Source: Romanomermis culicivorax (Eukaryota; Nematoda; Enoplea; Mermithida; Mermithidae). From it: a stretch of 64,000 nt of DNA. The first letter of the stretch is position 1. Each line of letters opens with the position of its first letter. The notes below the pieces were generated by a model. The model was not told where the DNA came from. It was given only the letters and a program-made list of their open reading frames with translations, and made no database searches. Shown here in pieces: positions 24,470 to 52,739 of the stretch. Made by a program: the position numbers and the translations under genes. The DNA lies in NCBI GenBank assembly GCA_963922205.1, contig CAWUHX010000068.1:806001-870000 (forward strand). Direction: 5' to 3'.

Positions 24470-27400
24470 TCATATGGGCAAAATTTTGGCCGTTTTGACC
24501 AATACTGCGCCAATCAACATGTCGACGAAAAGAACGACGATGGCGGCGATGCCCACCCACATGGAATACCCGAAATCGCCTTTACTCTCCAATGCCTGTA
24601 TATTAGTTGGCACGTCGCCGAGGTCTTGGCCGCTTTTGAGACCTGTAAAAAGTTAATGGATGATGAATATACATTGTCGATGTCTTAGGATACATACGTC
24701 AGATTTCGCGTACCAAGATATACTCACATCATCGCAACACAAAATATAAAAATTTCAATTTTTTAATCATAAACTGCGTTGAATTTCAGTATCTTCGTTC
24801 ATGACCCGTAAAACTTTTTGAAAAATTGACTTCAGCAAGTTACACTCTGCACTTTTAACTGACACCCTGTCTCTGCGATTCTGGCGCAGAGTTCACAAAA
24901 AGCAATGCTTTGGACGACAATTTCGGCACGAATCGTTGACATATTTTTAGAATTCAAATTTTTCACTAAATGAGGATAGATTAGCCACTAAAACATTTGG
25001 TTGAGTACAGGATTTTATAGATCAACATGACCGTATTGATAAGAGTCGTAATATTTTTTTACCGTCTCATTTTTGACATTTTAAAACTACCTAAAAAGTG
25101 TAAAATGCAAAATTCAGAAAACATTTTCATACCACATTATAGAACATTGTATTCTGTATCAAATGCACGGTAAATAATAAAGTTACTTCATGGCTAGGCC
25201 AATAAGTCTCAAGTCTCGTGAATAGACAGAAAAATGCTAAAAATAATAAAATTCCAAACCTTGGGATACTGTAGCCTGCGAATTTTACTTTTTGAGCAAT
25301 TTGGGAATTATCTTAATATCCAGCTTACAAAAATTGTCTTAACCCTCAACGTCCTGTATATACAGCGTAGTAAAAATATATAGCCTCAGTCAGTAGATGC
25401 AATGTATCCCATTCAATTCGCGATAAAAAAACAGTGTCATTTTTTTATTCAATTCGCAAGGTTTTGCGCTTCAAGTGAAGCTGTAGGGTGTGTTTGGTAT
25501 ACTCTAGTCAGCGCCGGAAAATCGAAAAACCGTCACTAAATTTTTCACGGGATTTTTTCCGGGTTTTCTTATATTCCGCGCCCGAGGTAGATTTTACCAA
25601 GGAATTCGGCTAATGCAGTCAAAAAGCGCATTCATTTTTCATCAGAATGCTTTTCATCGCATCGAATTACCTAGCATGATGTATTTTTGAGAAGTTTTGA
25701 AAAAATAACATTTTCTTTGTTTTTTTTTGCGTTTCGGATGATTTTTTAGTGAGCGAAAATGGTTGATAGTGAGAAAATATTCATATTTTTGGGCTCCCCT
25801 TCCAAATACCCGCCCTCTCCGCAACTGCAATTATAGTTATGATCGCTAAAGTAAATAAACAACAGTTTTCATAGATAAGAGTACTAAGGAGTAACAGAAA
25901 ATATGATTTTGGGTCGATTCGACCTTAAACAGGACGTTAAGGGTAAATATCTCATTTTTGACGTTCATCACGGTGTAATAATTTCGTAGTGGAGATTGGA
26001 ATTACCAGAAAGTACAATTATAAGATGATTTCCGCTTGTGCAACCCTGTAGCAGTACATGAATTTCTGTAATTTTTTGTCACCAGTCAGAAGACATCGTA
26101 AGCTATCTAATGTATAGGGAATTTTTTGGTGCTTCTGAGCTTTAGCAGTATATATGATGATTTTTGTGAAAAAATGACAATTTTCGCTCTCAACATTTGA
26201 TGTTTCAAATGCCACTGTATTCCTAATAAGCACTTTACACTAATGAATGCTACATTAAATGGTGGCTAATCCGTTGGGCTAATATTGGGTAAATTTTCAG
26301 GACACGATGTTTGACGTACCTAAACCTGCAAAAGTTGAAAGAAGTGTATATCAAAAATCGGAAAATCAAAAATTTCTAACTTTTGTCTTACTGTAGCTAT
26401 GCGAATTTTGATTTTCAGACGAAATGAGTATCATTTTCGTTCCTAGCGCATCAAGTTACAGTAAATATATGATTTTCAGGTAGGGTTAGTTTTTTGCTTA
26501 TCACAGCTCTCTGTAATAAAAAGCTAAATTTTCTCAGACGTCGTCCATTTATATATGAATCAGGAAATCGGAAAGCAAGCACTACATTATACTTCTGTCG
26601 TTTTTAAGTCGAGTCACTCCGACAAGTCGAAATTTACAAGTTTACCATAAGTTGAACGAACCAACCTGTAACTAAACAACCTGCACAATTTTCGACAAAC
26701 TTACAGTAAACGGCGACTCCGGCTACATCCAGGACGCAGGCTAGACCGGCGAAGATGGGCAGCGGTGGTGTCAGGCACGACGTACAACAACACATGCAGC
26801 AGGCGACCAAAGACCAGGCGAAGCCCAAGGCGCAAAGGGCGACGGCCCCCGCCAAGCAACCGAGGGCGGCTTTTTTCCAGTCGGGCGCGTTCTAAAATTA
26901 GATGGATCATCGGGTGGTAAATCAATTAAGGTTGGAAAAAACATGTTTTGGTAAATTCTGATGCGATGAGCACTAATGATTGACAAGCTTTTAGCTTTTG
27001 AATATTCTATGAAGCTAATTTTTCAAATAGATAATGTATGGTATTATTAATTGGTGTTCAGTGGCCAGAATAGTCTAACTAAAATATTAATTCTACTGTA
27101 GCTGTCCACTGAGCCATCTTGGAATATCAGACTACTGAAAAATTCAACATGTCTGGGTAACGTGACATACAACAAAATTGTCAATTTCAGTCGAGCTTTT
27201 GATTCTGATGTTAATATGGAATGGTTTTCAAAAAGCTACGTCAAAAGCAAATGCCCAAAAACCTTTCCTGTAAAGTTAGTGTGTGGTCAAATAAAATTTC
27301 ATACAAGGGGTGTTTTTGACAGAAGAAATTAGAGAACTCCCATATGATTAGGTGCATCACAAACACATTAAATAAAAAGTTTTGTAATCATCTTTCCTCG

Positions 27401-30400
27401 AAATCTGGAGTAGTTTACGGCTATAATGCAGGGTAGCCAAATAAAAACGGCCCACCACATCTTACAGTAGCACATCCATCCAAAGTTCTAGTTTTTGCGT
27501 TCTATGGCAAAATTACTGTAGTGTCGTACTTGATAAGAGTTTCATGGGTCTTCGAAATCTACGGATTTTTAACGAGCAAAGCCGCTCATTTGTGCAGTTT
27601 ATCACTACAGATTATTAAAAGATCGATAAATTTGACAGAAAATACTGCCGAAAACTGCTGTTGTGAATGAAAAATCTTCAATGGGATCATCAGTTTCAAA
27701 GTTTTAAAAGTTATAAATTTAATCTGAAATTTAATTCCAAAGTTTTAAAGTTTCAAGTTTTTTGGTTTAAAGTTTTAATTAATCGCTTTTCAAAAAATTT
27801 CGGATCACTCAATATCTACTACCGAAAATTTTGGAATATGCAAATTTGTCTGGAAACAGTGTTTTCTCTCATGATTATCAAAATTTACCTGCTCCGAAAT
27901 CAGATGTTCATTGTTTAATCCATTCAGTTTTCATTTGGGATAAAGCATTCTTGACTATGCTTATATTGTAGTAGAGGTATACTGATTTATTAATTTAAAA
28001 AATTATATATAGATCGACAAAAAAAACAGTGGTTTATTATGAAGAATATAGTACAGTATTTCTCCAGATCAAGATACGAAATTTTGAGACAATAAAATTT
28101 TTATCGCAATACTCAAGCTTGTCTGGGTACAAACTGTTTAGGCAGGTACTTTTTTTGGATCACCTTGTTCATCTTCAACGCATGACGTTGATCTTCGCGG
28201 CATTTCACTTAACTGTTTTATTTTGGTCAACTAGACATTCTTAAGGTCAGGTCTCATTAATCATAGCGAAATCTACCTGAGGATTTATATGAAGATTCTG
28301 AAACTAACTAAACTGTATCACATTTAAGAGATGCTTCTTGAGTGCAGGAAACTTCTTTTTTTTCAGTTTACTAACAATCAATAGCATCAGGAAAATGTAG
28401 ATTTGTATAGCTCATCAATTTTTATATATATAATTGTGAATATTTCTGGAGCTTGCGAAAAAAGTTCATCGATTACATATGATGTCCCAGAACATCGCCA
28501 TACGTTTACAGGAAACTGATGCTTTTCAAACTGAAAACATGTTTAGCGCGTAAAGACATGACGTTACAAGTATTCTCAACGTTCAAGCAATTTTTAGTAT
28601 AAATATAATAAAGAGCTAAACATATGATTATCATTTGAAATTACGCTCATTACCACGGACTGAGCAAAATAACATACAATTTGAAATTCACATTTTAAGA
28701 CATTGGCCAGTTTAGTAGAAAATATCATATGCTTGGATATTATATACCTGCATATACTAGATTAATATCTTTACGAATAATGTTCGTAGATAGTTCATGG
28801 GCCACATATAAGGTGTCTTCAGTTATCAAATCGGAAACGACTTATGTCTATGTCATGTCACAGGGATGACCTACATATAGCGACCTTATCATAAGTACAG
28901 TAGATTCTCCAAAATTCATCGGACCGAATACCGTGCTGCAAAATTTTGAAAATATAGAATAACATTCTGCTCACACTTAACGTCTTTGCGACAATTAGTT
29001 CTCAAGGATGAAAACTTTTTCTCGTTATTTCGTGATCATGGTCTGATCAAGATACGAACTTTTCTACACTCAACGGTCGAACCTTTGTCGAGGAATCGAT
29101 TCTTTGAAAATTCTAAAACGTGTATATTTTTATATCCATGCGTCTACTAAGAAACTCTTCTTTAGTTGAACAGTAGAAAAACACATTTTCAACATTCTCT
29201 TCAATAAACTGAATTGTTTGGGATGATATTGTTCATTATGCAAACAAACTTTATGAACTTTTTATGCTCAATGAATTGTCAAATATTGACAATTTTAAAA
29301 TTTATTCGGGAAAGCCGATCGAAAATGAAATAGAAGCGAAGATGCTCCTTCCGGAAAGAATTGTGTGAGCGTTTGGGCGAAGACCTCGTTTTATTGCCCA
29401 CAAAAACTAGTTTATGTATTATTGGGACCAATTTGCCAAAGGTTTATGGCGAAAAAAGCCACTGGGCAATAGTGAATCATACCCAGAAGTAGTTTCTGAC
29501 CTGTAAAATCAACTCAAAGATGAATGTCGCAGAGCATGAGATTTAAGAGCTAGGTAAGGCTAAGTGATTAATTTAATAAATAAGAAGTATGTAAACAATT
29601 ATCCAGTGTCCACTTTTTTCATGTTGCAACAGCCTACTGCAGTGGATCGAGGATGAGCGGAAGTTTAAGGGAAAAACAATGATCAAAGGATTCATTCATA
29701 GATCAATAATGGAACATAATGAGTTTGGTCCAGCGCTTCTGGCATAGTTCATACACGCACTGATGACCTTGTAACTTATCAAAATGCTGTTTTTCAGTAT
29801 CATGTGTCTGTTCCAAGCATACTGGCCCTGATACTGATTGACATGGAATATATTCAGTGTTGCAGCAAATGAAAGTTACGCATGAATATCTATAGCAGTT
29901 CATTGATACGTAATACATCTAGCCTGTTTTTTTTTAAATATTGTGCATTGAAAAATGACAAAAATTAGTACTTTCATCAAAATCACATACACAAGACTTT
30001 TACGGAAGACGTTTTTACTCAAAATTTCAAAACATAGCAGAAAATCGCGAAAATATGAAATACCATTTGTTCCTAAATTTGATATTTGGAAGCATATAAA
30101 GAAACAGACTAAAGACACTATCCCAAAATAACCAATGATCAATAAGTCAGATAACTGCCGAAATATTTCAAGTCAGATTTATTCACGCTTTTAATGATTT
30201 CATATTCGAAAACATTATTTTTTGCCTTTCAAATTACTTAAAAACCACACTAAACTTATATACAAATGAATTTTTTGTGAAACCATACAATTAACAAGCT
30301 AATGATATTTTTCCGAGGTCACTTTCGTTTTGTGATACAAATGCATCACAAGTAATATTGCATTATTTCTGCGATTTTCTCGTAAACTCTAGGTCAAATA

Positions 30401-31334
30401 AGACTGGAAATTTGTCGCGATACTAAATTAACACTTTAAAAAATTTTGAGTAAAACCTATGTAGTTAACGCCTTGTCTAGACGATTTGGACGACATTTTC
30501 TGTCCTTTTTCAATTTACAGGCATTTTATAGAAAACAGATTATAAGATGTTTAAGTTAATAAAAAATCATTATCTGATACCTAATAAACTGCAGACTGTG
30601 AATCAGAACAGAATTGAACTTTAGAAAAGCACCGTAACACAATGCGTTTCAGATATTGCCGAAGATACTCGCTTGTACAAGCCTTGGTTGCCGAGATCAT
30701 GAGAGCTATATGTCTAGTTACCATTTTAAGTTACTTGCATGCAAATTTTGGTGTGAATAAGACCCACTGGGAAGATTGACTGGTGGTCTCCAGGTGTAAA
30801 TTCCGAAATATTCTATTCAGAGATGAATTCTTTCTTCCATGGGCAATATTGCAGTATTAACAGCGGCCTTCAAAATGCATATTTTTCGATGTTTGTAATC
30901 ATCTGCTACTATACTTGGTAAACTTCAGTGTAAACAAGGTTCAGCATCAAGAAAAGTTTATGCAAGAAATTGATTTTTATGATCAAACAGAATCGGTGCA
31001 AATGAGATTTAAAAGAGATTTGAGTACTGTGACATCCCTTAAGTCAAGATGAAACGCAAGATGAATCGCCATTAATTTACACTCCAACAGTCATGTTGTA
31101 AATAAATATCTATGACATTCATGTTTCCAACGACTTCAAACTAACCTCCCAATCGGAAAGACACTGATTTGAGTTTAAATTCGAATCGGCGCACGATTTA
31201 AATATCCCGTAATAATTACTGTAGTGACTGTCCTGCAGTTTACGCCAGGCCGGCGTGGCCAAAGACACGGTGGTCAAACCGGCCCCAACGACTATGCCCA
31301 CGGCATAGGCCACCAAGAATATCGACGAACACAT
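24470..31334 (-). CDS. Claudin/Clc-like four-pass membrane protein (182 aa, first exon 1a)
   Basis: Three exons on the minus strand: 31334-31146, 26891-26705 and 24642-24470 (stop TGA at 24470-24472), with introns of 4,254 and 2,062 bp. Phases 0 and 1 agree. The protein has four membrane helices: about 5-26, 71-93, 106-124 and 154-174. The first extracellular loop carries the claudin-superfamily pattern W30 ... GIFKSC48 ... C58. A Cys-rich turn follows helix 2 (C94-C102, containing CCMCCCTSC), a usual palmitoylation-type context in such proteins. The C-terminus is very short (KTAKILPI), with no obvious PDZ motif. The ATG at 31334 is followed directly by helix 1. Family members in worms act in cell junctions and channel or receptor regulation; the exact subfamily (Clc-like versus claudin-like) was not resolved. 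An alternative first exon appears to exist at 39168-39455. Confidence 0.85.
25343..25943. mobile_element. piggyBac-type MITE in claudin-like intron 2
   Basis: 601 bp. Left: TTAA then CCCTCAACGTCCTGT; right: ACAGGACGTTAAGGG then TAAA. The ends are inverted over about 15 bp with a one-base difference, start with CCC and sit on a TTAA (left) or near-TTAA (right) site, as expected for piggyBac-type elements. No transposase frame is present. Confidence 0.6.
29919..30111. repeat. CTATAG-ended MITE copy, eroded (family M1)
   Basis: Begins with CTAGCCTGTTTTTTTTTAAA, contains AAAAATGACAAAAATTAGTA and AAATCGCGAAAATATGAAAT, and ends GGAAGCATATAAAGAAACAG then ACTA. Same order of internal words as the 1928 and 50025 copies. 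It lies in the first intron of the claudin-like gene. Confidence 0.6.
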
Positions 31335-32727
31335 ATTTTATCCCAATGAGGAAAATTAGTTTCAAGTGAAAAAGTCGTAGAAACGCTGAAACGTTAATGA
31401 GAAAAATTCTCCACGTGAAGAAAAAAGTTGGCCTAAAAATCGATGCAAGTGAAAAGGAACGAAATGTCAGAAGACAACAAAATGCACCTATACAATAGGA
31501 ACATGATTGACTGACTATTATAACATGTGGTCGGGAAACGTACGCAAGGACGCCCCATGTCGGAACAACTTTTTTTTTAAACTAGTTTCCTGACATAACA
31601 AATATAATTTTGAATAACAAGTAGAATACGACCCCTTTAAAAAATGAAGTTTGAAGAATTACACAACATTTCAACAGAGAGTGTCATTTGAAATGCGAAA
31701 AAAGTACGAGGAACCATACAATCAACAAGCTAATAATATTTTTTCCGAGGTCACCTTCGTTACGTGGTGCAAATCCATGGCTACGCATATTTCTAAGCTA
31801 AAAGTGTTGAAGGAAAAAACGCCGACAAAATGAAGAATGTGAAGCTTATGAATTGAACAATTAAACTAAACAATGGAGTAGTTTTTATGGTAACGGAAAA
31901 TATTCGGAATCCCAATATGATCAAGTTACTCGGGATTTCAGATAACAATAAATGGTAGTCAAGAGCTAGAATAAGAAAGGTTACAAAACTGGAAAGATGT
32001 TTATGCTTACCGACAGAAAATCCTAGTTTCATATCTCAGAAGATGTTGACACAAGAAGCCTGTTATACAAAAATCGAGAAATATGAACACAGATCTACAT
32101 CGAAAATGTTATTCTCTTGAAAATTCAGACCTCAGAGCTTTATTTTTTCCATTCTTGATAACTTAATTCAATACAGATAATTGCCCAACCTTTCTCAACA
32201 TGAGACAGAAATAAAAATCACGCTTTCGCTCTTTTACAGTGTATTTACAAGACAACTTATGTTGTCAAAACCAAAAATTTCTTCACACTGGCCGTAAGCC
32301 ATCAGAGTGATGGTGTAATTTTTAGCGTGGCTCGAAAAGCTGGATATGGACTGTATTTTAAAATATCTATATAATACACGTGGGAGAGGAGTCATGACTC
32401 TGGGCAGCCAACGAAATCTTGGCAGAACTCAAAAAGCTTTTGAAAATCAGAAAATTTTAGTTGGATTCCACAGCAATGTATGTTAAGTTGCCTTTTTTGG
32501 TCGAGAATGTATATATACAATTGCATTCCTATAGAATTGATACGCCTGGAGATGCTTGAAAGGCTTTCCCTTTTTGTAGTTCTATTTTTCATAAAACGAT
32601 TGTTGTACAAATTTAGAACTGAAGAGTTGACTGTTCGTCGGTTCAGCGGCTTAAACTTGTTTATGAATTGTAGAAAATTTTCAGTAAAACTTCACATTTT
32701 TCTGTGATATCATGCCTTTCCGAATTA

Positions 32728-33350
32728 CAAGGTGTTGCATAATGATTGGAAACACCCCTGCAGGCGTACGGGTATAAGCTACAAATAATTATCATATACT
32801 AGCGTGTAGAGAATTCAAATGTGCATATCACAAATTATTTTTTAATTTGAAATACCGAACTTGACTCAATTTATGGATTAAAATCAAAAGCTACCCTAAA
32901 ATCGACAAAAACGTGAATTCAAATGAATCAATAATCAGTTTCACTGCCATTTGCCTCCCTAACCTGTCGAAAACGTTCTGGCATCGAACACAAATGTTTT
33001 GAAAAAGTTCGATGTCATATTCTAATTCGGTCAAAACGAGATGCAAATTTTTTTGCAATGTTAATTTTCTTGCAACGATTTCTTTTTCCAGTTTGAGGCT
33101 TGAACTCTATCAAAAAGGCGAGCAGTTTCCGAATCAAAACTCATTTTCAAGTTTCAAAATTAAATCACAAATCAAATTTCTGACCAGTTTTATTGTAACT
33201 TGTTTCTTTACACGTAAATTGAATTTTAAACAATGCAATTTAGCTTATCTGATGCAGAATTAAATTTTCTACAAGGTGGTATATTACACTTTAATCTAGC
33301 ACGTACCTATTTGGCTGCAAGGCTGTCTCCAATCATTATGCAACACCTTG
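32728..33350. mobile_element. Tc1/mariner-type non-autonomous element with TA duplication
   Basis: 623 bp. Left CAAGGTGTTGCATAATGATT then GGA; right TCC then AATCATTATGCAACACCTTG. The inverted termini match perfectly over at least 23 bp and are flanked by TA on both sides (32726-32727 and 33351-33352). An open frame near 33090 includes LRLELYQKGEQF, which could be a worn trace of a helix-turn-helix region, but no transposase catalytic part is seen. Sharp ends suggest a fairly recent insertion. Confidence 0.85.
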
Positions 33351-33352
33351 TA

Positions 33353-36300
33353 TATCAAAATTCTATAGAATCCCAAACGATAATTTTTGAATCTCTTAGG
33401 GCTGCTGACATGCTCTCGAAGTGATCACAGGTTCAGCAGTGGTTGCAGCGAAAAATACTGGATTATGAACGCACTATAGAAATTTAGTGGATCAATACTA
33501 GTCTATTTATTATGCAATGACAGATGCAGCGATTCCATGAAAACAAGTTCAACAGAGAAAAACTACCTGTAAGCGTTCACTATTATCAATGGAAAACAGA
33601 ATTTCGTCCATGAGCGGCAAACAACAATTGAAAATTTTTCTTAATAACCTAATTGAATGATCAAAATTCTTCGAGAAGCACTCAAATGTCGGCTTATTTC
33701 TATTTAAATAAAAAATGTGGAAGCCTGATAGTTTGTGAAAATTGCGTATCAAGTACAATTTACTTTTTTGGTTGTTACGTCTGCCATTACAAAGTCAATG
33801 TGATATGGTTAGTAGATATGTATCGGGTCCAAAATTTTTAAAATATCGGGTTCAAGTCCGGTTCCAGCAAAATGGTCGTGTAATTTCGGGTCTCATTTCG
33901 GGTCCGGGTCCCCGATACACCTCTAACAGATACTTTTACAAGTCTACTTCGATAAATACCAAGAAATATTCGGCAGAAACTTGTAAGAAAATTAAGAATT
34001 TATAGCAGAGTTTATAGGTAGAAAGAAGGCTACACAGAGAGACTACAAGAATAGTCATGGATATTAACGATAAAAATGAAAATCTGTAAAGCAAAAAGCA
34101 CGTGACATATTACAGAAGTCAGTGGTTTTTCCACCAACTGTTCAGTCAACAACAAACAAAAAAGAAAGCGCAACAACGTAGAAGGCGTAGGGAATTGTAT
34201 CCGCACAAAAATTATCTATATGGTTTACTTTTCGTGTCCTAGTAACCGTACACAAATAAGCTAATTAAACAAAGTTGGAGAAGGTGCTCACACGAATGGC
34301 ACGGATCTATATGCGTCATGATGTGAATAATCAATTAATATGTGTCTATTGTAGAGCCAGTGATTAGCACGGTATTACCGAAGGGAAAGAATAGTTCCAT
34401 CGCGGAGAATTAATTCTACCACTCATACTGGATAACAGTATCTTATTCCACACGCGCTTGATTTGATGACAAGGTCACATGGTTATTCAAAGACTATTTA
34501 ACATTTCTGTCCTACTGCATTTGCTGCTGGTAGATGGTATTCGGAAAACTTAATGCTACACTGCATCATTATGTATGTATAGAGCGCGATAATACACACA
34601 AAATTCCGTGAAACAAGAATGATAAATAAAAAGCCTCTAATAATCATTTTCAACTTAAAATTTTCGAAAAAATCTTTTCAGTGAACGAAAATTTAGTCCT
34701 CATTTCATATACAAAACTCAAATCTGGGAAGTTGAGTATCATCTCACTAACTACTCAAGAAATTTTCTTGAATAGGATTCGTTAGGAACTTACAATCCAA
34801 GGTTTTAGCTCATAGAAACAAATCTAACTCAGTGGGAATTTGCGTTAACAAAACATTAGACTTCGCCGAAAGACTGAAAGCATGATCTGCTTATAAGAAA
34901 CTAACTAATCGATGTACAGAAAAGCAGCGTATGAAAAATAATAATTTCTAATCGAGTTTTTGGAACTTCTTTCTCAGGTAAGAAAAGCATTGGAGGATGC
35001 TTATACTTCCAACTTCCATGCTTCAAAACTACCAACTGCGCTGATCAACGTACATCATTCAGTTTTCCTTAAAAATACAAGTAGAGTCCAAAATTGATTG
35101 TGAAATGTTTTCGACATAAATTAATCGAAAAAATATCAGTTCTGTTTGACATCTTAATAATTTTAACGCGATAATCTGTGTTGCTCCTCGGAGAATTTTT
35201 GAAAATCTTTCACCATAAACAGAAAACCTTCTTTTCGGAATGCTGATTTTGGTAGTGATGTCCTGGAAACATAGTCTGGACACCATCTGAAATTGTGATT
35301 GCAAAAGCAAAAGACAGTTAAACTAGAAGATACGAAATCTTAACATTTAAGACATGATTTCTAAGAAGTTCTACCTTCTCTGTGATAAGTTGAAAATTAA
35401 TCATATATCGAACTGAGATATTTTGATTAGTTCCGTACGCTGAATTTCATGGTATCATTCGTTTTGCTTGATAACGAAAATTCACACCGCTACAGCATGC
35501 CAAAATTTGAAAATTGATTTATTTTTGGCACTTTTCAGTGGTCTTGCTAGCCAAGCGATATTTCAGGATCGGATTAATCTCATTCGATATATGAATATTC
35601 GTTTTACACAAGAAAGAATAAGCTATCTTTTTGTGTAATATTTTACCGTAAATTGTTGCACATTACACCCTTTAAGAGAGTTTAAAGTGTCGAGAATAAG
35701 CCGCCAAATTCGAAAAATTTTCTTCATGGGCACTCCCGCGCACTTTCCCATCGGATGCTGCAGAATTTTATTTTCTTATTTTATAGCTACTACATTCTTA
35801 CTGTATTGGTAAAGTTTTCATCCAAATTTTGATACCCTTTGCGGAGCTGCACAGCTCTGAAGAAGGCATACTCATGGAAATCACTCAGAAACCACGTCAT
35901 TTTCCAGGTGGCCCTTCTCTACCACATATGATACCCAAACAAACATTTTACACTCGGCAAAAAGTTTAAACTGTCGAAAATGAGAAGCAAAAAAAGAAAA
36001 ATCCTATTTATGGGCACACCGGAGCAGCTTCAACCATGATGTCGAGGAATTTGATATTTTTATTCTTTAGTTCATATATTCCTATAGTAGCTGCGAAAGT
36101 AACATCTCATCATCGCGCACCGTTTTGGCAGCTGTAGACATTTGCATACACTGCATTGTCATTCAAATGTGTTTTTGAATTTGAGTAAATGCCCAATCAA
36201 AAGAGTTCTGGGAACATAACATGTGTCTCCACCCAATACACTATAACAAAAAATGCGGCTTGAAGTCCTGGTAAATTTTCATTGATGCAGGTTTGATGGT

Positions 36301-37294
36301 TTCTACACGAAGTGCTTCAAATGGAAGCTCGAACACTTCGAAAATTTTTATTAAATTTCAGAAATTGAGTGATTTTTTGGAATCCATTTACAGAAAAGCG
36401 GCAAGATATATTCGGATACTCTTTGCTTTGTTGGAAAGGCACTGCAATCTATTATTATTTGCTCTATTTTCGTCTTGCTAGCATCCCGTGGTGTTAAACA
36501 GGGTGAGAGCACTTTCGCACAGCTTATAACATAGGTCGGGGTCAGAGAGCCGACATTTATTTTGTAACATTAAACTCGCAGCTTCGATTTTTCCGGTCAA
36601 ATTACTGAAAAGAGAAATTTTTGTCGCATCTCTTCCGGTGCATCCTGTAGCGTAACCATTGCAAATTGATCGATGGAATTTTATGAGTGATTCAACTCAC
36701 ATCTTTTCTTTTTATTCGTCTAATCTGAACGTTTTGAATTTTTCCTGCATCTCGCTGACGGCATATTTAGTGGAATTAATTGGCATTTTTGGATCAACTT
36801 TCAGGATGTGCAGACATATACAGCCCTCAAAACGGTACATTAATTTGATTGAAATGTTAACAGAATATGTCAGACATTAGTGGCTACAGAAATTAAGAAA
36901 ACATTCTGCGGCCTCCTGCGGGAAGGTTCCTAAAAAAGGCTCCAAAGGCCTTTTTCGGTTTATTTTGACTTCCACTTTGACACTTTAAAAATGAATACAA
37001 GTGTAAAGCAAATGATTAGAACATGTTCTTCACACCCGCGTATAGAGCATGGTCTTCTGCATGCAATAAACATTTGGCTTTAAGGTAACGTCTTTTCTTA
37101 GCTGTGATACTTCGATACACAAATTCAGACCGAAAAATGCCTAAAAATGTAGAAATTCCGAACCTTGGAGTACTGTAGCTATGCGAATTTTGATTTTTGT
37201 GCTGAATGAACGCTGTCACGATACTCAGCATGTAAAAATACTCAAAATATCTCTATTTCAGGTATTATTAATTTTCAACTCATCATAGATCAAT
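33353..37294. other. Gene-free stretch between the two claudin-like first exons
   Basis: No coding exon was supported. Positions 33515-33620 resemble the GATGCAGCGATCCCGTGAAA repeat family seen at 63290. Segments near 35690-35830 and 35960-36110 look like diverged duplicates of each other, sharing CATGGGCACTCC / TATGGGCACACC words and a following TTTATTTTCTTATTTTATAG-like tract. The open frame at 36293-36481 follows a weak acceptor and was not called. If the alternative first exon at 39168 is real, this whole interval is intron for that isoform. Confidence 0.4.
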
Positions 37295-38964
37295 GGGTCT
37301 ATTCTCAAGTGAGCGATTCCCAAGTGAGCGGTTCTCATGTGAGCGAATTCTCTGACCGACTCCCATGTGAGCGATTCCCATTGAACGAATTCCGAAGAGA
37401 GCGAATTCCCAATTGAGCGATTCCCAAGCGCGCGATTCCCAAGTGAGTGATTCCCGAGTGAGCGATTCCCAAGTGATCAAATTCCTAATTGAGTGAATTC
37501 CCGACTGATCGAATTGCCAAGCGAGCGATTCCCAAGTGAGCGATTCCAGAGTGAGCGATTTTCAAGTGATCAAATTTCTAATTGAGCGAATTCCCGACTG
37601 ATCGAATTCCCAATTGAGCGATTCCCAACTAAGCGATTCCCAAGTGAGCGATTCCCAAGTGAGTGATTCCGAAATGAGCAAATTCCCTGAGCGATTCCCA
37701 TGTGAGCGATTCCCCATTGAACGAATTCCAAAGTGAACGAATTCCCAATTGAGCAATTCCCAAGCGAGCGATTCCCAAGTGAGTAATTCCCAATTGAGCA
37801 GTTCCCAAGTAAGTGATTGCCAAGTGAACGATTCCCAAGTGAACGATTCCGAAGTGAGGAAATTCCCTGAGCGATTCCCATGTGAGGGATTCCCCATTGA
37901 GCTAATTCCGAAGTGAGCGATTCCCAATTGAGTGATTACCAAGTGAGCGATTCCCCTATTGAGCGAATTCCCAAGTGAGTGAATTCTTAATGGGGCGATT
38001 CCAAACGAGCGATAAAGAATGTAATAACACTTTCTTCATATTTTCCTCCTTTACCTTATATTTTTCTTAGTATATATTTCTTTTTTCTTTCGTTTTGTGT
38101 GTGTGTTGTTTAGGGTTTCGTTTATGTATGTTTTTGCATGTTCGTCTTTTGACTGCTTTCTTTCGTTTCCTTTTTCTAGTAATCTAATTTTTTCTGATTG
38201 TCTCCCATATAATTCTTGTACAATTCAGTACGCCGTATTTTCTGTTTAATCTTATTCTTTGTGAGTTTTTCTTCATTTTACATACTTTTCATCGTTTTTT
38301 GCTTTTATTTCTTTATTTTTCTCTTTTTCTATTCTCCAGATTCTTTTTTTGTTCTTTTTCCACATTAATTTTTTTTCTTCCTTGCTGTCTTCTCTATCTT
38401 GCTCCTTCTTTCTTGTCACTTTTTTCACGTTTTTTTCTTTTTTTAATGTTTCTCCACCTATTTTCACTCATTCTTAATATCTTCCCTTTTGTTGATGTTT
38501 CCTTTCTCTTGATGTTTTGTTTCTTTCACAATTCTTTTGCTCATGTTTTTCATGAAGATTTTCACATTTACAACGATGAAAGACTCAAACATGCCGAACT
38601 TTACAAGAATTATACAGGAAACTAGGTTATTTAAAATGACAACTTGTAATGTATTAAATCACGAGCAAAAAAATAAAAAATTAAATGACAAGGAAGAAAA
38701 TAAAAGAGGAGACAGAAGATGAAAACGTCAAAACATACATAAACGAAAACATAAGCAATACACACAGAAAACGAAAGAAAAAAGAAATAGATTTAAAGAA
38801 AAATATAAGGTAAAGAAGGAAAATATGAAGAAATTTTATTAAATTCTCTATCGCTCGTTTTAAATTGCCCAATTGGGAATTCGCTCCATTGTGAATTCGC
38901 TCAGACGGGAACTCGCTCAATGGGGAATCGCTCACTTGGGAACAGCTCACGTGAGAATACCCCC
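37295..38964. mobile_element. Foldback-like element with minisatellite arms (FB1)
   Basis: The left arm begins with about 720 bp of a 15-17 bp minisatellite (unit GAGCGATTCCCAAGT), then about 150 bp of unique sequence (TTTCTTCATATTTTCC, TTTACCTTATATTTTTCTT, TTTCTTTCGTTTTGTGTGTG, TTTCGTTTATGTATGTTTT). The right arm holds the same in inverted order: unique part 38700-38860, then about 100 bp of minisatellite ending near 38964 with GAGAATACCCC, which mirrors the left start GGGTCTATTCTC. The loop (about 38160-38700) is T-rich and carries an open frame at 38299-38625 with no credible protein. Long inverted arms with internal tandem repeats are the hallmark of foldback transposons. Confidence 0.65.
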
Positions 38965-39167
38965 GTTTCAGTACCATTGAAGTGTAAATCCAGATATTTT
39001 TAAATTTTTATATTTTGCGTAATTTTCGCTTCTCCAAACAAACTTTTGAGATGTGTGTAATTGAAAATTACAGTATGCCATGACTTACTGTGGCTCAGGC
39101 ATCTCAAGAAATGTTTTCTGATCTTTTCCAATAGAGTGAATACATTTACGTGTACAAAATCACTTAC

Positions 39168-39455
39168 GTAAAAGTAATTCTTGCAACTTTCGAATGTGCC
39201 GTTGGACCCGCAGGAAGCGCTAATTAGCCCGTAACTAATTTCCTCGTAAACTAATTTATTATCACTGCCGTTAAGATTATTCAGGCTAATGTTCATAATT
39301 TGCATAGTACTAATAAAATTTGGATCCGAAACGTTGAACTTAGCGTTCGTAGCTATAAAATGCCGCCAAACCGGCGTCACCAACCCTACGACCGTGAGAC
39401 CGCCGCCGATCATCAATAGAATCATGAAAATGAAATTCATGCACGCGAATCCCAT
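39168..39455 (-). CDS. Alternative first exon 1b of the claudin-like gene
   Basis: ATG at 39455; the exon ends in phase 0 at a perfect GTAAGT donor (39167 downward). It encodes 96 residues: helix 1 about 6-26 (MNFIFMILLMIGGG...VVGLVTP), W30 at the same residue number as in exon 1a, then an extended loop with GLISASC82 and C91 and four N-glycosylation sequons (N41, N55, N62, N85). The text GGGLTVVGLVTPVWR is the family signature, paralogous to GAGLTTVSLATPAWR in exon 1a. No second or third exon of its own was found on the minus strand before 31334, whereas exon 2 at 26891 accepts phase 0. Splicing to it would give a 215-residue isoform. The alternative is a separate gene with lost or unseen downstream exons. 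Confidence 0.7.
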
Positions 39456-40570
39456 AATTAAAATAAAATATATGCAAATTGGTTAAACTTTGAAATAGTG
39501 TCCGTGTAGCGTATTTTATGTCAAATCTTACTGTAGTTCTTTGATCGACATGACTAAACCGTTCCAGAAAAAAATGCGTGTCCGCAAAGTCTTATCTCGA
39601 TGTTCCGGAGTTTAAGACTATTCTGATACGCTCCATTGCTAAGCAACCGGTCAAAACAACACCAAAAAGAAAATGCGGCTCATAAATCGATCAAGAATGA
39701 TGATAATTGACGCTTCCATGATTATAAATCCACTGTTTTTGCTCGAATATGAAAGAATGGTGGAGGTGGTCATTTTTTTCATCATGGAAAAAACGTCGTG
39801 GGATCACCGGAACGTGGTCGAAAATTGACGCAGATACAATGTCTGTTTATCTGAAATGAGATTGCACTGTTTTTTTTAGGAAAACCGTTATTGTATGTTG
39901 GGGTGGGTATGATCCACATCAGATACAGAGGATGTGATGTAACATCTGGAAGAGAGTTCTCGGTGAAATTTACAATAAAGACGATATTGAATTTCAAATC
40001 ATACATATAATTGTGTATTGGATAACCCATAATTACGTAAGTGATGTTACACAACAACATTTTTGCTTTTTTGTATTGTTTACATCAAAATTTACATAAA
40101 TCTTTGAAAATTTGTATATGCCTAATATCACAGCAACGGGGGTAGCATGAAGTGACAAACCGTGCATTTGATAGATAGCATCTGGTAGCGTGCCTCTTAT
40201 AGCTTCTTGGACGTAAGCATTGTAGTTTCGTCAAAGTTGAGACTTGATAATCAAATCAGTATAAGATCATAATGCGTGCACATAGACAAATCCACCTTAT
40301 GTTCCACTTTTGCAAGAGAGCCCCTAAATATCTACTACCATTGTGTAGCACTCAAACGTGACTTTTTGGTAGGTTGCAGTAGTCAACTTGTGAAAAATAT
40401 AGACTTTCAATGCAGATTTGTTATCTGCATAAACATTTTTTTGTACGTCGAACAGCTCGTTACCTCGAATTTGTATGAAAATCTGACACTAGGAATGCCC
40501 GGTACACCAAATAATGATCAAAGACAAACACAAAAATTCCGTTTAATTTCAAGATTTCATTTTCACGTTT
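39456..40570. other. Gene-free region beside exon 1b
   Basis: Presumed upstream region of claudin-like exon 1b on the minus strand. AT-rich words such as CATATATTTTATTTTAATTA lie just before the ATG and could serve as a TATA element. Minus-strand open frame 39782-40060 has no recognisable features. Nothing else was identified. Confidence 0.35.
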
Positions 40571-40816
40571 CTTAGGCTTAATCTCAGACTTAGGCTCATG
40601 TCCAAGCTTAGGCTTAAGCTTAGGTTTGAACTTGATCTTACCTAAATCGCTTAAGCTCAGGCTCAGACGTAGGCTTCGACTTAATTTAGACACATACTTA
40701 GGCTTAGGCTTAGACTTCAGCTCAGGATTATACCTAGGCTTAGTTTTAGGCTTAGGCTAAGGCGTAGGCTTGGTCCTTACGCTTAGGCTCAGGCTTAGGC
40801 TTAGGCTTAGGCTTAT

Positions 40817-40879
<63 letters not shown>

Positions 40880-41110
40880 TTGGCTCAGGCTTAGGCTCAG
40901 GCTTAGGCTCAAGCTTAGGCTCAAGCTTAGGCTCAAGCTTAGGCTCAAGCTTAGGCTCAGGCTTTGGCTTAAACTTGGGCTTAGACTTAAACTTAAGCTT
41001 TGGGTTATACTTAGGCCTAGACTAAGGCTTAGACTTAAACTTAAGCTTTGGGTTATACTTAGGCCTAGACTAAGGCTTAGACTTAAGCCTAGGCTAAGGC
41101 TTAGGCCTAG
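40571..41110 (+). repeat. Degenerate interstitial (TTAGGC)n array
   Basis: About 540 bp of hexamers, mainly TTAGGC, TCAGGC and AAGGCT-phase variants. A homogeneous core of TCAGGC units spans about 40815-40880, and a higher-order 12-mer AAGCTTAGGCTC repeats near 40905-40955. TTAGGC is the telomere repeat of many nematodes, with the G-rich strand on plus here. Near the right end a 60-bp unit containing AGACTTAAACTTAAGCTTTG is duplicated. Reading frames through it give only Leu-Ser or Leu-Arg repeats and are not genes. Confidence 0.85.
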
Positions 41111-42132
41111 TCGTGCATTTGAGGTAACGAAACGTTCGATATAATCGGACGTTCGAGATAACGGGGTGCTCAGGGTTATGGTAAGTGTCACAATTACAAA
41201 ACTCAATCGAAAGAAGTGGGCTTTGGTGCTTTCCAAGTTTTGGGAAAATGCTTTGACACATTTTAGGCCACTTCGATAATGAAATGAGATAGGCTCATTA
41301 AATAACATCTGCAATAATTTTTAGATTAAATTATGCTATCCATATCCATCTTTTCAATTTCCCGCATGCTTGTGAAATCAGTTATATGAATATTTACCAT
41401 TGTAAGCTTTTTCATGCAAATTTTGGTTTAAATAATTTCCTCTGAAAAAGACGACTTTTTCGAGTTAAAGAAGGCACTATAGCATTTCCAATTTCAGAAT
41501 TTACATTTGTTAGCTGTTCCTCAATTTTTTTTGTTCTGCTCCTTACGCTAAGAAACTTTGTGTCTCAGTAATTTTGCTTGATAAATTAATCCTATGAAAT
41601 TAAAGCTGTCCATTATCAAAATCGACATATTCGCAAGTGTTTGAGAGTCTTCTATTCAATATATTCGTGGCTAAAAAGTTTTTTACGCTTGCCATTAAAA
41701 TTCAGTATATGATTTTCTACTTTTCAGCACATCCTTTTCGAAAAAGTACAAATTTTATAATAAAGCAAGTACATAAACTCGTTTCTTTGGACCAACTTTC
41801 AAGCTAACTAGTTAGGCAAAGTAAATAACAAAGAGCAGAAAGTCGACAAAGCTCTCTCTCTCTCTCTCGCTCTTTGGCATGGTGTGCATCATACAGTCAT
41901 GTTCAGAATTTAGATACTATAGCACATCCTGTATACATTCGCGTTACTGTTCATTGATTTTTCCCGGGGCTTTTGTGCATCAAGCCTTCAAAACATTCGT
42001 ATGCAGCACACCCGCTAGCATTCACTCTTTTTTCATCTTGTCTAAAGTAGAGAGTTAACATCGTTCTTTTATCAGCTAACATGTTCTCGTAATTCTTCGT
42101 GTTCAACTTTCTTTTCATTTTATTAGAGCAAT
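41111..42132. other. Gene-free region with CT microsatellite
   Basis: Contains a short (CT)n tract at 41851-41868. It otherwise holds the presumed upstream region of the small membrane protein gene at 42133. No exon was recognised. Confidence 0.45.
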
Positions 42133-44951
42133 ATGGTCAGTTTGAAACAGGAATTAAGTTTGTTGGATTATTTCGGACCTTTGGTCGTTTTCGTCAGTTT
42201 TTTCGTCATTGTTTTTTTAATATCGTTTACGTGCATCATGTGGTTTTGCATAAGCAGTGCCGACGAGGCTGTCGTTTTGCAAAAAGTAAGTGAGGATTTT
42301 TGTAGCACCTATGCATTTTCTGAGCAGTGGTACTGTAGACTACTATTCTGATTCATGTGTGAATTTTTACATTATTATACACGTGTGAAAACTTGGTCAC
42401 GCTGCAGATCTACACTATGATGTCCATAGATTTTAGTTGGTTCAACAATTCAGTGATTCGCGTGCTAAGTAGTTCCGCAAGTGATTTGAGATGTTGCTGT
42501 TAGTTCAGGAGGTACGTAAAGGTATTTTCGAGCGAAAAAAATTTTTGTCCTTACTCTTTCCTAGATTTTTTGTTTATAATTCAAAAATTTTTTCTGAGCA
42601 AAATTTGAAAATCTTTAGCAAAAGAAACATTTTATATTATTTCAGAAATTTTTTTTTGGAAATGTAGTCTTAATTTGAGAATAACAAAAATTAGTTCTAT
42701 CTATCTCACTAGAATTATCCACCTAAAAAATCGTTGAAAGTTAGTTGATGTATTGATAAACATCCTGTCCTGTGTGATTTACTTATTCACAGAGAATCGT
42801 AAAAATATTAAATGTCTTATTATTCAACAGCTTATGGAATAAAATAGACTATAAAGAATTTTGAAAAAATAACATCAGAGACCAATCGACCACAGAACGG
42901 TGCCTTGTGTAGCTGTTTTTTCTAACAGTCAATTTTTACTAATTAATGAGTTCATTGATTTGTTCAGCAGAGCACTCATTCATGCAACCGAAAAACAATG
43001 ATTACTGAACTAATGAAGGTTTAAAACTGTTCAGGCGCGACTAGCAGAATTTATTGATATTTTTTTTACAGGAATAGTTATTCATTATAGTATTCTGTAA
43101 TTACGAACATACTAATGCAGGTATATGAGATATCTTGAGCACCAGTTGACCACAAGATAACTCAAGTAGTTAATGATATATTCATCAAATCTGATCCAGA
43201 TTCACCACTTTTTATCCTCAAAAATTCATCTATTCCTACCCCTAAAAATCTAATTTTATCCGACGCATTTTTTAAAGAAGCCTTTGCAGAAAGTACAGGT
43301 CAGATGCAACCTAAGAGACATTATCTGCATCATAACACTTTACTCGAGTTACCATCTGAAAAATTGATCGTGCCCCAACTCCGCCACCGTCCCAACACCG
43401 CCACCGTCCCATCTCCGCCACCGTCCCAACTCCGCCACTATCGTGTCCCAACACCGCCACCGTCCCAACTCCGCCACTGTCCCAACACCGCCACCGTCCC
43501 AACTCCGCCACCGTCCCAACTCCGCCACTGTCCCAACTCTGCCACTTTCTTGTCCTAACTTTCGCAATCTTTCAAAAAGTTTGTTTTTTGTAACAAAGTT
43601 TTTTTTTACTCAACAACATGACATTGCTAATTCATAGGATGGCAAAAACTGATATTATCATTAAAGCAATAAATACATGGTATATTTATATAATCTTCGT
43701 TTGTATAGTCGTACTTAACTATACAAGCGATTTTACCGAAATAACCAAAAATAGAACAACGAGCGTGAGACCGGAATTTACTTCATTAGCATATTACCAA
43801 AATAACTGTGTGCTTTGCACATTAAAATACAAACATACGGATCTGTTTTCATTTCTTGTCGTCAATTGATTCGAATTTGTGTAATCAAATCATGGGTGAC
43901 TTTAGTCCTATTGAAAATTTTATGAATCAGGAATTAAAGAGTAGAACGGGAACGATTTGATGGCCAGAATAACAGATTATTTGCGTCATTTAGTGCATCT
44001 ATTGGGTTAATGTTGAAATTTGCATTCGGAATTGATGAATAAATATGATACATTGACACGGAAAAATTATCACTTATATCATAAAATATTGTTCATTCAT
44101 AGATCTGATAAGCACATTTGGTTAAGTTTAACGCGTTACAAAAGATAAACTTTTTGAAAGATTGCGAAAGTTAGGACAAGAAAGTGGCGGAGTTGGGACA
44201 GTGGAGGAGTTGGGACGGTGGCGGAGTTGGGACGGTGGCGGTGTTGGGACAGTGGCGGAGTTGGGACGGTGGCGGAGTTGGGACGGTGGCGGTGTTGGGA
44301 CACGATAGTGGCGGAGTTGGGACGGTGGCGGAGTTGGGATGGTGGCGGTGTTGGGACGGTGGCGGTGTTGGGACGGGCCCGAAAAATTAAGTTCTGAAAG
44401 TTTAGAAAATCGAACGTGCTTTGTAAAATGAAACTTATCAATTAATCCTACAGAAGTATTTCCCAATATGAAAACTATACATGTGCTACAAAAATGGCTC
44501 GATTTTATAGTTCCCAACAATGTAAAAACGAAGTTCTTGCTCCGCATGATCGATACAAAAAAATAATGTCAAAAGATTTTGATTAGAAGTGCAGTTTCGA
44601 TCGATAAATTTATGAGATCGAGTGGAAGATTTCCTTTTCACGTTCCAAATTTTTTAAAGAAAATATTATTTGAGTTTTTAAGAATTTTACAAACACATGA
44701 CATCACCAAAATGAATATTTCTGAAACTCAACTCCTGAAAATTCAACCTGTTGTCCATTTGTCTATGTAAATTAGCATCGCCATTCAGCATAAATTACTC
44801 GGAAAACTTCTGCAAAATTTGCAAAAAATCTCGTTTAATTTTTCCTCGGCAAGTTTTTCTTTTTCAGTGGAACGTACCTTGCACCAGAAAGAGGAAATTC
44901 AGTTCGAGAAGGAGATACAGCGTGGAAGCCGCCGCCGTTGCGAATCGTTGA
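42133..44951 (+). CDS. Small single-pass membrane protein (about 78 aa), two exons
   Basis: Exon 42133-42285 encodes 51 residues, MVSLKQELSLLDYFGP followed by one strong membrane helix (about 17-41, LVVFVSFFVIVFLISFTCIM) and a short acidic tail, ending in phase 0 at GTAAGT. The ATG is preceded by TTTTATTAGAGCA, so a leader intron or trans-splice site is possible. Exon 44868-44951 follows TTTTTCTTTTTCAG. In phase 0 it gives WNVPCTRKRKFSSRRRYS then VEAAAVANR and a stop. Another frame of the same exon (ERTLHQKEEIQFEKEIQRGS...) looks equally protein-like, so an unseen exon could shift the phase. A competing 3' route is exons 45723-45794 and 46027-46134, also phase 0. No family recognised. The 2.6-kb intron hosts the second foldback element. 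Confidence 0.55.
42662..42853. repeat. CTATAG-ended MITE copy, eroded (family M1)
   Basis: Left end TGTAGTCTTAATTTGAGAAT with interior ACAAAAATTAGTTCTATCTA, right end AAAATAGACTATAAAG. Same internal order as other copies. Sits in the intron of the 42133 gene. Confidence 0.45.
43371..44380. mobile_element. Foldback-like element with minisatellite arms (FB2)
   Basis: Left arm 43371-43594 and right arm 44135-44380 are inverted copies. Each has about ten units of a 17-bp minisatellite (CCCAACTCCGCCACCGT) and a 55-bp inner unique part (TTTCTTGTCCTAACTTTCGC then AATCTTTCAAAAAGTTT and TTGTAAC), the latter matching at all but about two positions. The 540-bp loop carries an open frame at 43618-43869 of 83 mostly hydrophobic residues, with ATG but no recognised family. 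Architecture is the same as FB1, but the repeat unit is unrelated. Confidence 0.75.
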
Positions 44952-44999
44952 TATTTTGCCGTTTATGATTTTCACATATAAGTTTAATTATTCGAACAT

Positions 45000-45345
45000 A
45001 AAACAAAAAAGTAGGTTCGATTTGACACGCTATTTTCACATAGTAAAAAAATTTTTACTGTAGGAAAAATTTTCTTCATGGCAATGGAAAGGCCAAAAAT
45101 CACAGGAAAAACATCATGCTTATCCGCCTTTGATTTGGATAGAATTGTGTCCGCACCTGAGTGCTGCCTTAGAAATTTTGACCATTTAACCAGGTTATTG
45201 GAGGACATTTTCACTTGTTCTGTTTGTTGCACATGGATGAGAAATTTCCTCTAATTGATTGCAGTAATTGAGTTTCTCACTTTTTCGTGTCAAACTTACT
45301 TTCATGAGATTGGTGCATTTGTCTTTACAGATAAATAGACTATAG
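45000..45345 (-). repeat. Dispersed repeat family M2, inverted copy
   Basis: In inverted order it matches 63290-63590: AGTAGGTTCGATTTGACACG at the left equals the AAATTAAACCTACTTTTTCC region there, and AAACTTACTTTCATGAGATT at the right equals its GTGAAAGTAAGTTC end. The interior CACAGGAAAAACATCATGCT is shared with a third copy at 54405-54665. Confidence 0.55.
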
Positions 45346-45722
45346 TAGTCAACTTTATCAGAGAGGTCTCGAGGCTCAACAATTAGTTTTTCACCGCAGT
45401 GTTGCTAATGTATAAAAGTAAGATTCTCTCCGTTTCTTTATCCAAACGGATGCGACACAGTAATGAGAATCGTAATTAGAAAATTAGCACAAAAAATTTT
45501 ACACTCTGCCGTTAGCTTTTTACTGTTCATAGTTGCTTGCTCACAAAATTGTGTTACTTACTAATAAAAATAAAATTTTACTCCATTTGTGTGATTTTTT
45601 ATTCACTTTGTGTTTGTTTAGTTTTCTTATGATGTATCGATGGATGTTTTTTATTTTTGTTTTTTCAATTCTTTTAATCCATCACTTTTCATGTCCAAAA
45701 TTTTGTGCCTAATTTTTTCAAG

Positions 45723-46134
45723 CTAGAAATTAACAAAATATACCGCGAAATACCGAAAAATCTTCGAAACGGAAACTGCTATGTGGAAGAAAAGGTATGA
45801 ATGCTGCATACAAAATGAATCATGTGAAATTTACTTGAAGCCGCATTGTGATAAGAATGCGATGAGCGTGTACTGTACTTTTTACTAGATAACTTTTGTT
45901 CTGGAGCATTGATTTCGACAAATTTGTTTGAATTTCAACTAGGAAGTCAAATTCTATAGGATGCTATCTTTTATTCAGGATTTACCGTAGCTGTCCGTGC
46001 CATAAATGAATGAATTTTTCTTGTAGAAAATCATTCATTGGCGTATTCGATTTGTTGTTCAGCATTCATTGTTACGTTGTTGTGGTTCTTTTGTGTATAA
46101 AACAATACCAATTCAATGTAAAAATTTTTAGCAG
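45723..46134 (+). CDS. Two exon-like segments, possible alternative 3' end of the 42133 gene
   Basis: 45723-45794 follows TTTTTTCAAG and encodes LEINKIYREIPKNLRNGNCY then VEEK; the other two frames stop at once. It ends at GTATGA in phase 0. 46027-46134 follows TTTTTCTTGTAG and encodes KIIHWRIRFVVQHSLLRCCG then SFVYKTIPIQCKNF and a stop. All joins with exon 42133-42285 are phase 0, giving about 109 residues. A different frame (46010-46450) gives a longer uninterrupted ORF over the same DNA, so these exons are tentative. Confidence 0.3.
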
Positions 46135-46450
46135 ATGGGATGTAGAGAATTATATCGACATAGCTACAGTAAAACGAAAATTATTGACGAAAAATTTCAA
46201 GGTAGCTCACTGGTTTTTTTTACATTATGCTTACAATATAAATAAATTTTTTGGAAAAACGTCAAAAGTCAGTTTAATTCGACATCTATCCGATGATAGA
46301 ACTCACGTTCCATTAACTCGATTACTCAAAATTAAACTAAACAGACTATTTACGTTAACTGCTGAAGTCCTTGCATGCCTTCAGAAAGGAACGATTCGCA
46401 GGATACCAGATCAACGAAAAATCGATCGATCGACAAAACTGTTATCATGA
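46010..46450 (+). CDS. Uninterrupted 146-codon ORF, uncertain
   Basis: Begins MNFSCRKSFIGVFDLLFSIH with a hydrophobic N-terminal third (VVVVLLC), then a basic region with TVKRKLLTKNFKVAHWFFLH and LRHLSDDRTHVPLTRLLK-like text. It is unusually long for chance in this AT-rich DNA, but codon use is ordinary and no family was recognised. It competes with the exon model 46027-46134. Confidence 0.25.
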   Translation: MNFSCRKSFIGVFDLLFSIHCYVVVVLLCIKQYQFNVKIFSRWDVENYIDIATVKRKLLTKNFKVAHWFFLHYAYNINKFFGKTSKVSLIRHLSDDRTHVPLTRLLKIKLNRLFTLTAEVLACLQKGTIRRIPDQRKIDRSTKLLS

Positions 46451-47475
46451 ATATCCGAAGCAGTTTAAGCAAAAAAGTTCCAATACATTACCGTTCAAAA
46501 ATTGATGATCCTACTTTCTGTTATAAAATACGTTCAAAACGAGACTTGGTTGAATATTCAATGTGACGACGTCAAATTTGATCAAATCATACACGTAAGA
46601 AAATAATTTTTTGTGAAAAAAAGAGGTGTTGACATTGAAAACTGGGCGTTCGCGTTGAATCTCCGAAAATGATTGATGCCGAAGTATTTGAACTCTATTT
46701 TTATTGTACAATGAACCAGTCCGCGACCGTAGTGAAATATTTTCACAAAAAATCGGACCAATATGTATATAGTAATTATCGATCTACGATTTGAAGAAAT
46801 ATCAAACAATAAAGGGCGTGTACTTGAATAAGTTGTGATGCCAAATTAACGAGTTATGAATCTCCAAATAGTATGAAGAAAAAAGAAGTGGGCAGGTAGT
46901 TTTGTGCAGATGAAGTTTGATGTTTTCCCGAATTTTTGCTTTATTCGCACGCTATCAACCTATAATTTTAGCACCCCTTCAACTGTAAGTAATTAATTGC
47001 AAAAGATTATTTCTGTGCAGAATTAGTTCGATTTGTCTTTAAGCCGGAGACGAAAGCTGGAAATTTTTCCTCTAAAAAGAGGATTTGGGAGAAATATAGT
47101 TCATGAGTTTTTATTCCACGAAGTGTACTACATCAAAGTCCTCGGTCTTCGATATCGATATCACAGTAGAAAGAAAAAGCACAATATAAGATCACAAGTA
47201 TTTTAGAAATGAAATTGGAATCAGGTTATAGAAACTTTCGAGGCGCTAAAGGTGTTGGTATTTACTGGCCTCAAAGATTTGACACCTAAGTCATATTTCT
47301 TATTTCATATCCAGAGCAATTTCCACAGTCTTAAAATGATTGAAAAGAGTCTGTATCATGAAGGAAAAATTATTTTGTAGAGCTAACGAGCCTTCCATAA
47401 TTTTGGATAAAAGTTTGGCTACGACCTCGCTGCATCGATCATTTGGAAATGAATGGAGTATAGTCTTTCTTGAAC
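46451..47475. other. Gene-free region with dispersed repeat fragment
   Basis: No gene is supported. 47390-47465 repeats words found at 4612-4690 (CCTTCCATAATTTTGG and CTCGCTGCATCGATCATTT). Confidence 0.45.
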
Positions 47476-52433: not shown

Positions 52434-52739
52434 TTTTTTGATCCTAGAAACATGAAAAGCAAACGTGAAAGATCTAGAAGAGAAAATCTTGATGCAGAAT
52501 CCCTAGCTGTCGCCATGACGAAAAATTTTTTTACGCTAGTGGCAAAAATGGTAATGAAGCAAAGTTTTGTATAGAGCAGCAAAAGAATTGATAGGGAAAG
52601 ACAATGGGTATAAATTTCAGCTGTCGGATATGATATTTCAGCTGAATTATAAATGTAAGCCTAGAACTGTTCTTTCCATAAAAAGCTATTAGGACTGGAA
52701 AGAAGGGAAAATTAATACCCGTCTGGGACTTGTAAGATT

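Follow-up and report, generated by a model that had tools for sequence, protein, structure and literature searches.

The minus strand of a 64,000-nucleotide stretch of the nematode Romanomermis culicivorax (NCBI GenBank assembly GCA_963922205.1, contig CAWUHX010000068.1, positions 806,001 to 870,000 of the forward strand; hereafter the window, with 35.5% G+C and no N) carries a gene of the claudin superfamily, whose exons 1a, 2 and 3 encode a protein of 182 amino acids (isoform A), and a second coding first exon, 1b, about 7.8 kb upstream of exon 1a. The proximal first exon, 1a (31146–31334, minus strand; 63 codons), contains the start codon, helix 1 and a short first extracellular loop (loop 1) with Trp30, Cys48 and Cys58, and ends in phase 0 at the donor GTTAGT. 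An acceptor-like TTTCAG lies 53 bases upstream of its start, which is compatible with putative trans-splicing. The distal first exon, 1b (39168–39455, minus strand; 96 codons), contains the start codon, helix 1 and a long loop 1 with Trp30, Cys82, Cys91 and four N-glycosylation sequons, and ends in phase 0 at the donor GTAAGT. Exon 2 (26705–26891, minus strand; 187 nt) encodes the end of loop 1, helix 2, a Cys-rich cytoplasmic loop and helix 3, is bounded by the acceptor ATTTTAG and the donor GTAAGT, and ends in phase 1. Exon 3 (24470–24642, minus strand) encodes the second extracellular loop, helix 4 and a short tail up to the stop codon TGA at 24472–24470. In the model favoured here, exons 2 and 3 would be common to two isoforms. 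The open frame of exon 2 begins exactly at 26891, and because the TAG of its acceptor is an in-frame stop, it has to be preceded by an exon that ends in phase 0. An earlier note, made from the letters of the sequence, had given these exon positions and had described both first exons as ending in phase 0 and exon 2 as accepting it; frames, donors and acceptors agree with all of this.

Hydropathy analysis places one helix in each first exon, two in exon 2 and one in exon 3, resulting in four transmembrane helices in isoform A; the same would hold for a protein starting from exon 1b only if that exon is joined to exons 2 and 3. The best Pfam profile of isoform A is PMP22_Claudin (PF00822), which matches residues 5–165 with 29.2 bits against a curated cut-off of 26.7. 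It is followed by Claudin_3 (PF06653; 25.4 bits, cut-off 28.7) and Clc-like (PF07062; 19.5 bits, cut-off 24.9), both below their cut-offs. Claudin_3 and Clc-like are nematode-rich families. A sequence search of the PDB with isoform A gave five weak unrelated matches (best E = 0.21), and among viral contigs one of 16 candidates was confirmed (20 residues matched, E = 3e-5), which was judged to be a chance match.

A Trp after helix 1 followed by a pair of cysteines in loop 1 is a trait of the PF00822 superfamily, and it is present in both first exons (W30, C48 and C58 in 1a; W30, C82 and C91 in 1b). The strict loop 1 motif of claudins, [GN]-L-W-x(2)-C-x(7,9)-[STDENQH]-C (PMC12384651), is found in neither of the two, and only a relaxed form occurs (GIF-KS-C in 1a, GLI-SAS-C in 1b). 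Since the strict motif is absent, the predicted protein is claudin-like and not a classic claudin. Loop 1 of mammalian claudins is described as 50–60 residues long (PMC12384651), and the loop of isoform A appears to be at or below the low end of this range, with the ends of the helices being approximate.

Relationship and coding signal of the first exons

Exon 1b is genuinely coding and is a homologue of exon 1a. The Smith–Waterman score between them is 64, which was reached by none of 5000 shuffles and by none of another 5000 in which helix and loop were shuffled separately. The two exons also detect each other among 2885 six-frame segments in phmmer (E = 0.0012 and 0.0005). They have in common the core GxGLTxVxLxTPxWR, in which the Trp is residue 30 of both, exactly where the earlier note had put the signature Trp, and in each of them the phase-0 donor follows the second cysteine of the loop pair by exactly five residues. 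The relatedness is recognizable only around helix 1 and the cysteines, and 1b is longer than 1a by 33 residues. Across all six frames of the window, 1a and 1b are the only places with a TPxW-type site following a hydrophobic stretch, which gives no further first exon; a looser pattern that drops the hydrophobic condition also matches one plus-strand site, at 48687.

The contrast in G+C at the third codon position is 0.1875 in exon 1b, above that of all 143 control windows (maximum 0.172), which are stop-free windows of 96 codons sampled every 30 bases per frame, some of them overlapping. The frame continues open for about 55 codons past the donor, to 39003, where this contrast drops to 0.036. 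A frame open for 96 codons arose in 42 of 5000 simulated sequences of the composition of 1b. That 1b is a chance open frame is rejected in view of its homology to 1a, its third-position signal and the conserved intron position. A search of bacterial and archaeal genomes with exon 1b confirmed none of 44 candidates. An AlphaFold model of exon 1b alone is too poor for use (mean pLDDT 60.9, pTM 0.25).

The sequons of 1b are NVS41, NIS55, NGS62 and NGT85, one of which lies between the two cysteines, while 1a has none. Shuffles of the Asn-rich 1b loop contain 1.8 sequons on average, and 317 of 5000 reach four, for which reason the number of sequons is rejected as a sign of selection for glycosylation. 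Of the contrast drawn in the earlier note between a short 1a loop and a long 1b loop with four sequons, the lengths and the sequons are thus present, but the sequon number is not beyond chance.

Probable joining of exon 1b to the downstream exons

The best reading of the locus, and in our view a probable one, is that 1a and 1b are alternative first exons joined to common exons 2 and 3. It is favoured because the two exons are homologous, have the same intron position and phase, and no second exon 2 is detectable; the phase of 1b is compatible with exon 2 just as that of 1a is, so that two coding first exons are phase-matched to the common downstream exons. The joining of 1b to exons 2 and 3 would produce isoform B, a protein of 215 amino acids. 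Its only matches among claudin-type profiles are Clc-like (18.5 bits, profile positions 5–204 of 212; cut-off 24.9) and Claudin_3 (18.2 bits; cut-off 28.7), the two families that isoform A also matches below the cut-offs, and PMP22_Claudin is absent from its matches at E up to 10. Exons 2 and 3 alone match Claudin_3 with 16.0 bits and do not match Clc-like, and six chimeras with a shuffled 1b, out of nine made, reach 11.1–16.3 bits for Claudin_3 and none of the six matches Clc-like. This gain with the real 1b over the shuffled 1b lends modest support to the predicted joining.

Several observations, here and in the searches described below, weigh against this reading. Isoform B lies under every Pfam cut-off, and the profile that it matches best, Sensor (19.6 bits; cut-off 28.2), is unrelated. 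No claudin profile of Pfam is matched by exon 1b on its own. The intron between 1b and exon 2 would span 12.3 kb and holds repeats. The first exons are diverged, and most of their similarity falls in a single stretch of 22 residues, of which 10 are identical in tblastn. Exon 1b also lacks the synonymous codon bias of exons 1a, 2 and 3 (–3.5 against +7.2 to +14.4, leave-one-out), and a score no lower than that of 1b is reached by 67 of the 143 control windows. Such differing codon preferences would be compatible with an isoform that is rarer, or with another gene. The idea of alternative first exons, as put forward in the earlier note, keeps its footing in the homology of 1a and 1b, the matching phase and the failure to detect a second exon 2, but not in codon usage, by which 1b is set apart from 1a, 2 and 3.

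The divergence and the codon usage of 1b would be in keeping with the chief rival explanation, which we consider unlikely. Under it, a tandem duplication has produced a separate claudin-like gene that starts with 1b, and the exons 2 and 3 of that gene, diverged or split beyond detection, are located in the 7.8-kb gap between the first exons or further down. By tblastn and phmmer, the next best matches to exon 2 in the whole window (E = 0.41 and 1.8) and to exon 3 (E = 1.3 and 10) are noise. A homology-free scan for exon 2 was based on four features, namely an acceptor, an open frame in phase 0 with 35 codons or more, two helices and a donor. The known exon 2 was the single place on both strands of the window that had all of them, with none in the gap (31335–39167) and none in the intron between 1a and 2; when the hydrophobicity threshold was lowered and all phases were allowed, the gap and this intron still gave no two-helix exon. 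Phase-0 exons with one helix and a donor are also absent from the minus strand of the gap, with one on its plus strand and one on the minus strand of the 1a–2 intron. The only positive control of the two-helix scan is exon 2, on which the scan was modelled, and its background of 0.06 per stretch is exon 2 itself; an exon 2 that is diverged, split or unusually spliced could escape it. The minus strand of 31335–39168, which the earlier note had singled out as a place for another exon 2, thus yields none by homology or by the two-helix scan.

The gap is less clear with respect to exon 3, since it contains exon-3-like candidates for terminal exons in addition to the lack of any detected exon-2-like sequence. 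One-helix terminal exons in the phase of exon 3 are too common to be informative: in the window, such a frame follows 28 minus-strand and 21 plus-strand acceptors, the real exon 3 included, and eight and five of these, respectively, lie within the gap. One of the eight on the minus strand, at 38621, is an acceptor-like site followed by a 51-codon one-helix open frame inside a foldback element, with raised third-position G+C (0.31, 0.18, 0.45 for the three positions), and these candidates could be counted in favour of a separate gene. If the donor is not required, two candidates for two-helix terminal exons also appear, with acceptors at 31581 in the gap and at 30154 in the 1a–2 intron. The former lacks a pyrimidine tract and shares sequence with exon 1a, though in a different frame; the latter has 28% G+C and no third-position signal (0.30, 0.26, 0.27). 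The claim of a single exon 2 and a single exon 3 accordingly stands for exon 2 by both homology and the two-helix scan, but for exon 3 by homology only.

Codon usage and protein profiles give a similar picture of the gap. In a scan with a codon-bias model trained on the four exons, no segment of the gap exceeds 5.5, compared with 14.4–22.6 for exons 1a, 2 and 3 and 10.6 for 1b, which speaks against a separate gene there, though the model is of low specificity: in other parts of the window, repeats and further frames reach 14.2. Pfam scans of the gap gave no credible match in the three minus frames (one Lamprin at E = 1) or in the three plus frames (one Extensin, 14.9 bits; cut-off 105), by which another gene in the gap was rejected as a candidate. 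For the exons of a duplicated claudin-like gene this counts for little, as the known exon 2, taken by itself, is not recognized by any claudin profile of Pfam either. On the minus strand upstream of 1b (39456–49450), Pfam gave one repeat-type match below the cut-off.

It is still less probable that 1b is an orphan, namely what is left of a gene or exon duplication, with little or no transcription and not joined to exon 2. The lack of a downstream partner of its own by homology, and the repeat-rich stretch with the foldback element that begins about 0.2 kb past its donor, would be in keeping with such a remnant. Despite its strong divergence from 1a, however, 1b retains the 96-codon open frame that so few simulated sequences have, both cysteines and a consensus donor, and its third-position signal above all control windows points to selection on the protein. 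Use of 1b unspliced up to 39003, or spliced to a terminal exon such as that after acceptor 30154, which would produce a protein with one or three helices, is suggested by the open frame past the donor and the two hydrophobic stretches of the 30154 frame but is very improbable, as the coding signal ends at the donor, the 30154 segment is A+T-rich without third-position signal, and neither product has four helices.

Repeats and neighbouring sequence

The foldback-type repeat with minisatellite arms (37301–38958, no strand assigned) lies inside the 1b intron and is not part of the gene product. It includes a minisatellite at 37301–37979, with about 45 copies of the 15-base unit ATTCCCAAGTGAGCG, and inverted arms at 37905–38162 and 38702–38958. 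The core TACTGTAGC marks a dispersed repeat with one copy at 37144–37197 in the same intron and two, at 25240–25293 and 26362–26415, in the intron between exons 2 and 3. Between the first exons, a second inverted-repeat pair (32726–32826 and 33252–33352; 101 nt, 75% complementary) may represent a small transposable element.

About 1.2 kb upstream of 1b, a degenerate 12-base tandem array of CTTAGGCTTAGG (40697–41110; about 34 copies, 77% matches) holds 17 of the 26 plus-strand TTAGGC of the window and none of the 10 GCCTAA. TTAGGC is the telomere repeat of nematodes, and because the array is rich in it, the array may be an interstitial telomere-like sequence. Further upstream, a 17-base unit (CCCAACTCCGCCACCGT and its complement) forms two inverted, facing arrays at 43374–43545 and 44184–44376, about 640 bases apart. 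Long open frames of 328 codons (47999–48982, minus strand) and 262 codons (51717–52502, minus strand) have no Pfam match above the cut-off and are possibly further genes. Searches of the window gave no Rfam match at the gathering score and no tRNA.

Known first-exon switches and the two loops

The exchange of helix 1 and loop 1 via the first exon is already known in vertebrates. The two main isoforms of CLDN10, a gene of five exons, differ in the first exon (PMC7140793); claudin-10a is an anion channel and claudin-10b is a cation channel (PMC7642450). CLDN18 has two promoters and two versions of its first exon, called 1a and 1b; the differences between the resulting isoforms, 18.1 and 18.2, lie mostly within residues 1–69 and thereby affect loop 1 (PMC12384651). 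CLDN10, named as the vertebrate precedent in the earlier note, thus does have first-exon isoforms but is not the sole case, CLDN18 having the same design. The present locus, as read from its sequence, would resemble CLDN10 in that two isoform types are set by the first exon, and CLDN18 in that alternative first exons alter loop 1. It is unlike CLDN10 in having two first exons and two common ones, and in that the first exons, with putative splicing, differ by 33 residues and four sequons. The isoforms of CLDN18 are 91% identical (PMC12384651), whereas 1a and 1b are recognizably related only in the limited regions noted above.

In C. elegans, 18 claudin-like proteins are reported, some located at epithelial junctions and others acting with channels or receptors (PMC6083452). 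Like CLC-1, VAB-9, NSY-4 and HPO-30 of this worm, the R. culicivorax protein is an invertebrate member of the claudin superfamily, a comparison made by description only. The parts of that source on the C. elegans proteins cited here mention no alternative first exons that swap loop 1. Among the open-access matches listed, titles and the beginnings of abstracts likewise gave no alternative first exons for an invertebrate claudin.

If 1a and 1b are alternative first exons of one minus-strand gene, each would have its own start of transcription or trans-splicing, and both would be spliced to 26891 to produce isoforms A and B. Loop 1 of isoform B would then be 33 residues longer and might bear up to four N-glycans. 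The choice of promoter, or of trans-splice site, would select loop 1 and hence the extracellular face that is shown on the same membrane anchor. In vertebrate claudins, loop 1 is crucial to ion selectivity (PMC12384651). Isoform A might serve as a barrier or adhesion form, and isoform B, presumably the less junction-like form, might be a variant that is unable to pack like A and resembles those members of the superfamily that partner channels or receptors. A tentative extension, which we find possible yet doubtful, is that this first-exon switch evolved independently of those of vertebrate CLDN10 and CLDN18 and lets one four-helix scaffold carry either a compact loop 1 of the junction type or a long one, possibly glycosylated, of the type that partners receptors or channels, so that one locus would supply both functional classes.

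Should both isoforms exist, isoform switching outside vertebrates, too, would have made use of the exon boundary that sets helix 1 and loop 1 apart, which would suggest that the structure of claudin genes itself invites the swap of helix 1 and loop 1. The locus would also provide two naturally occurring proteins that are identical in helices 2–4 and differ in their loops, by which the role of loop 1 could be separated from that of the scaffold.

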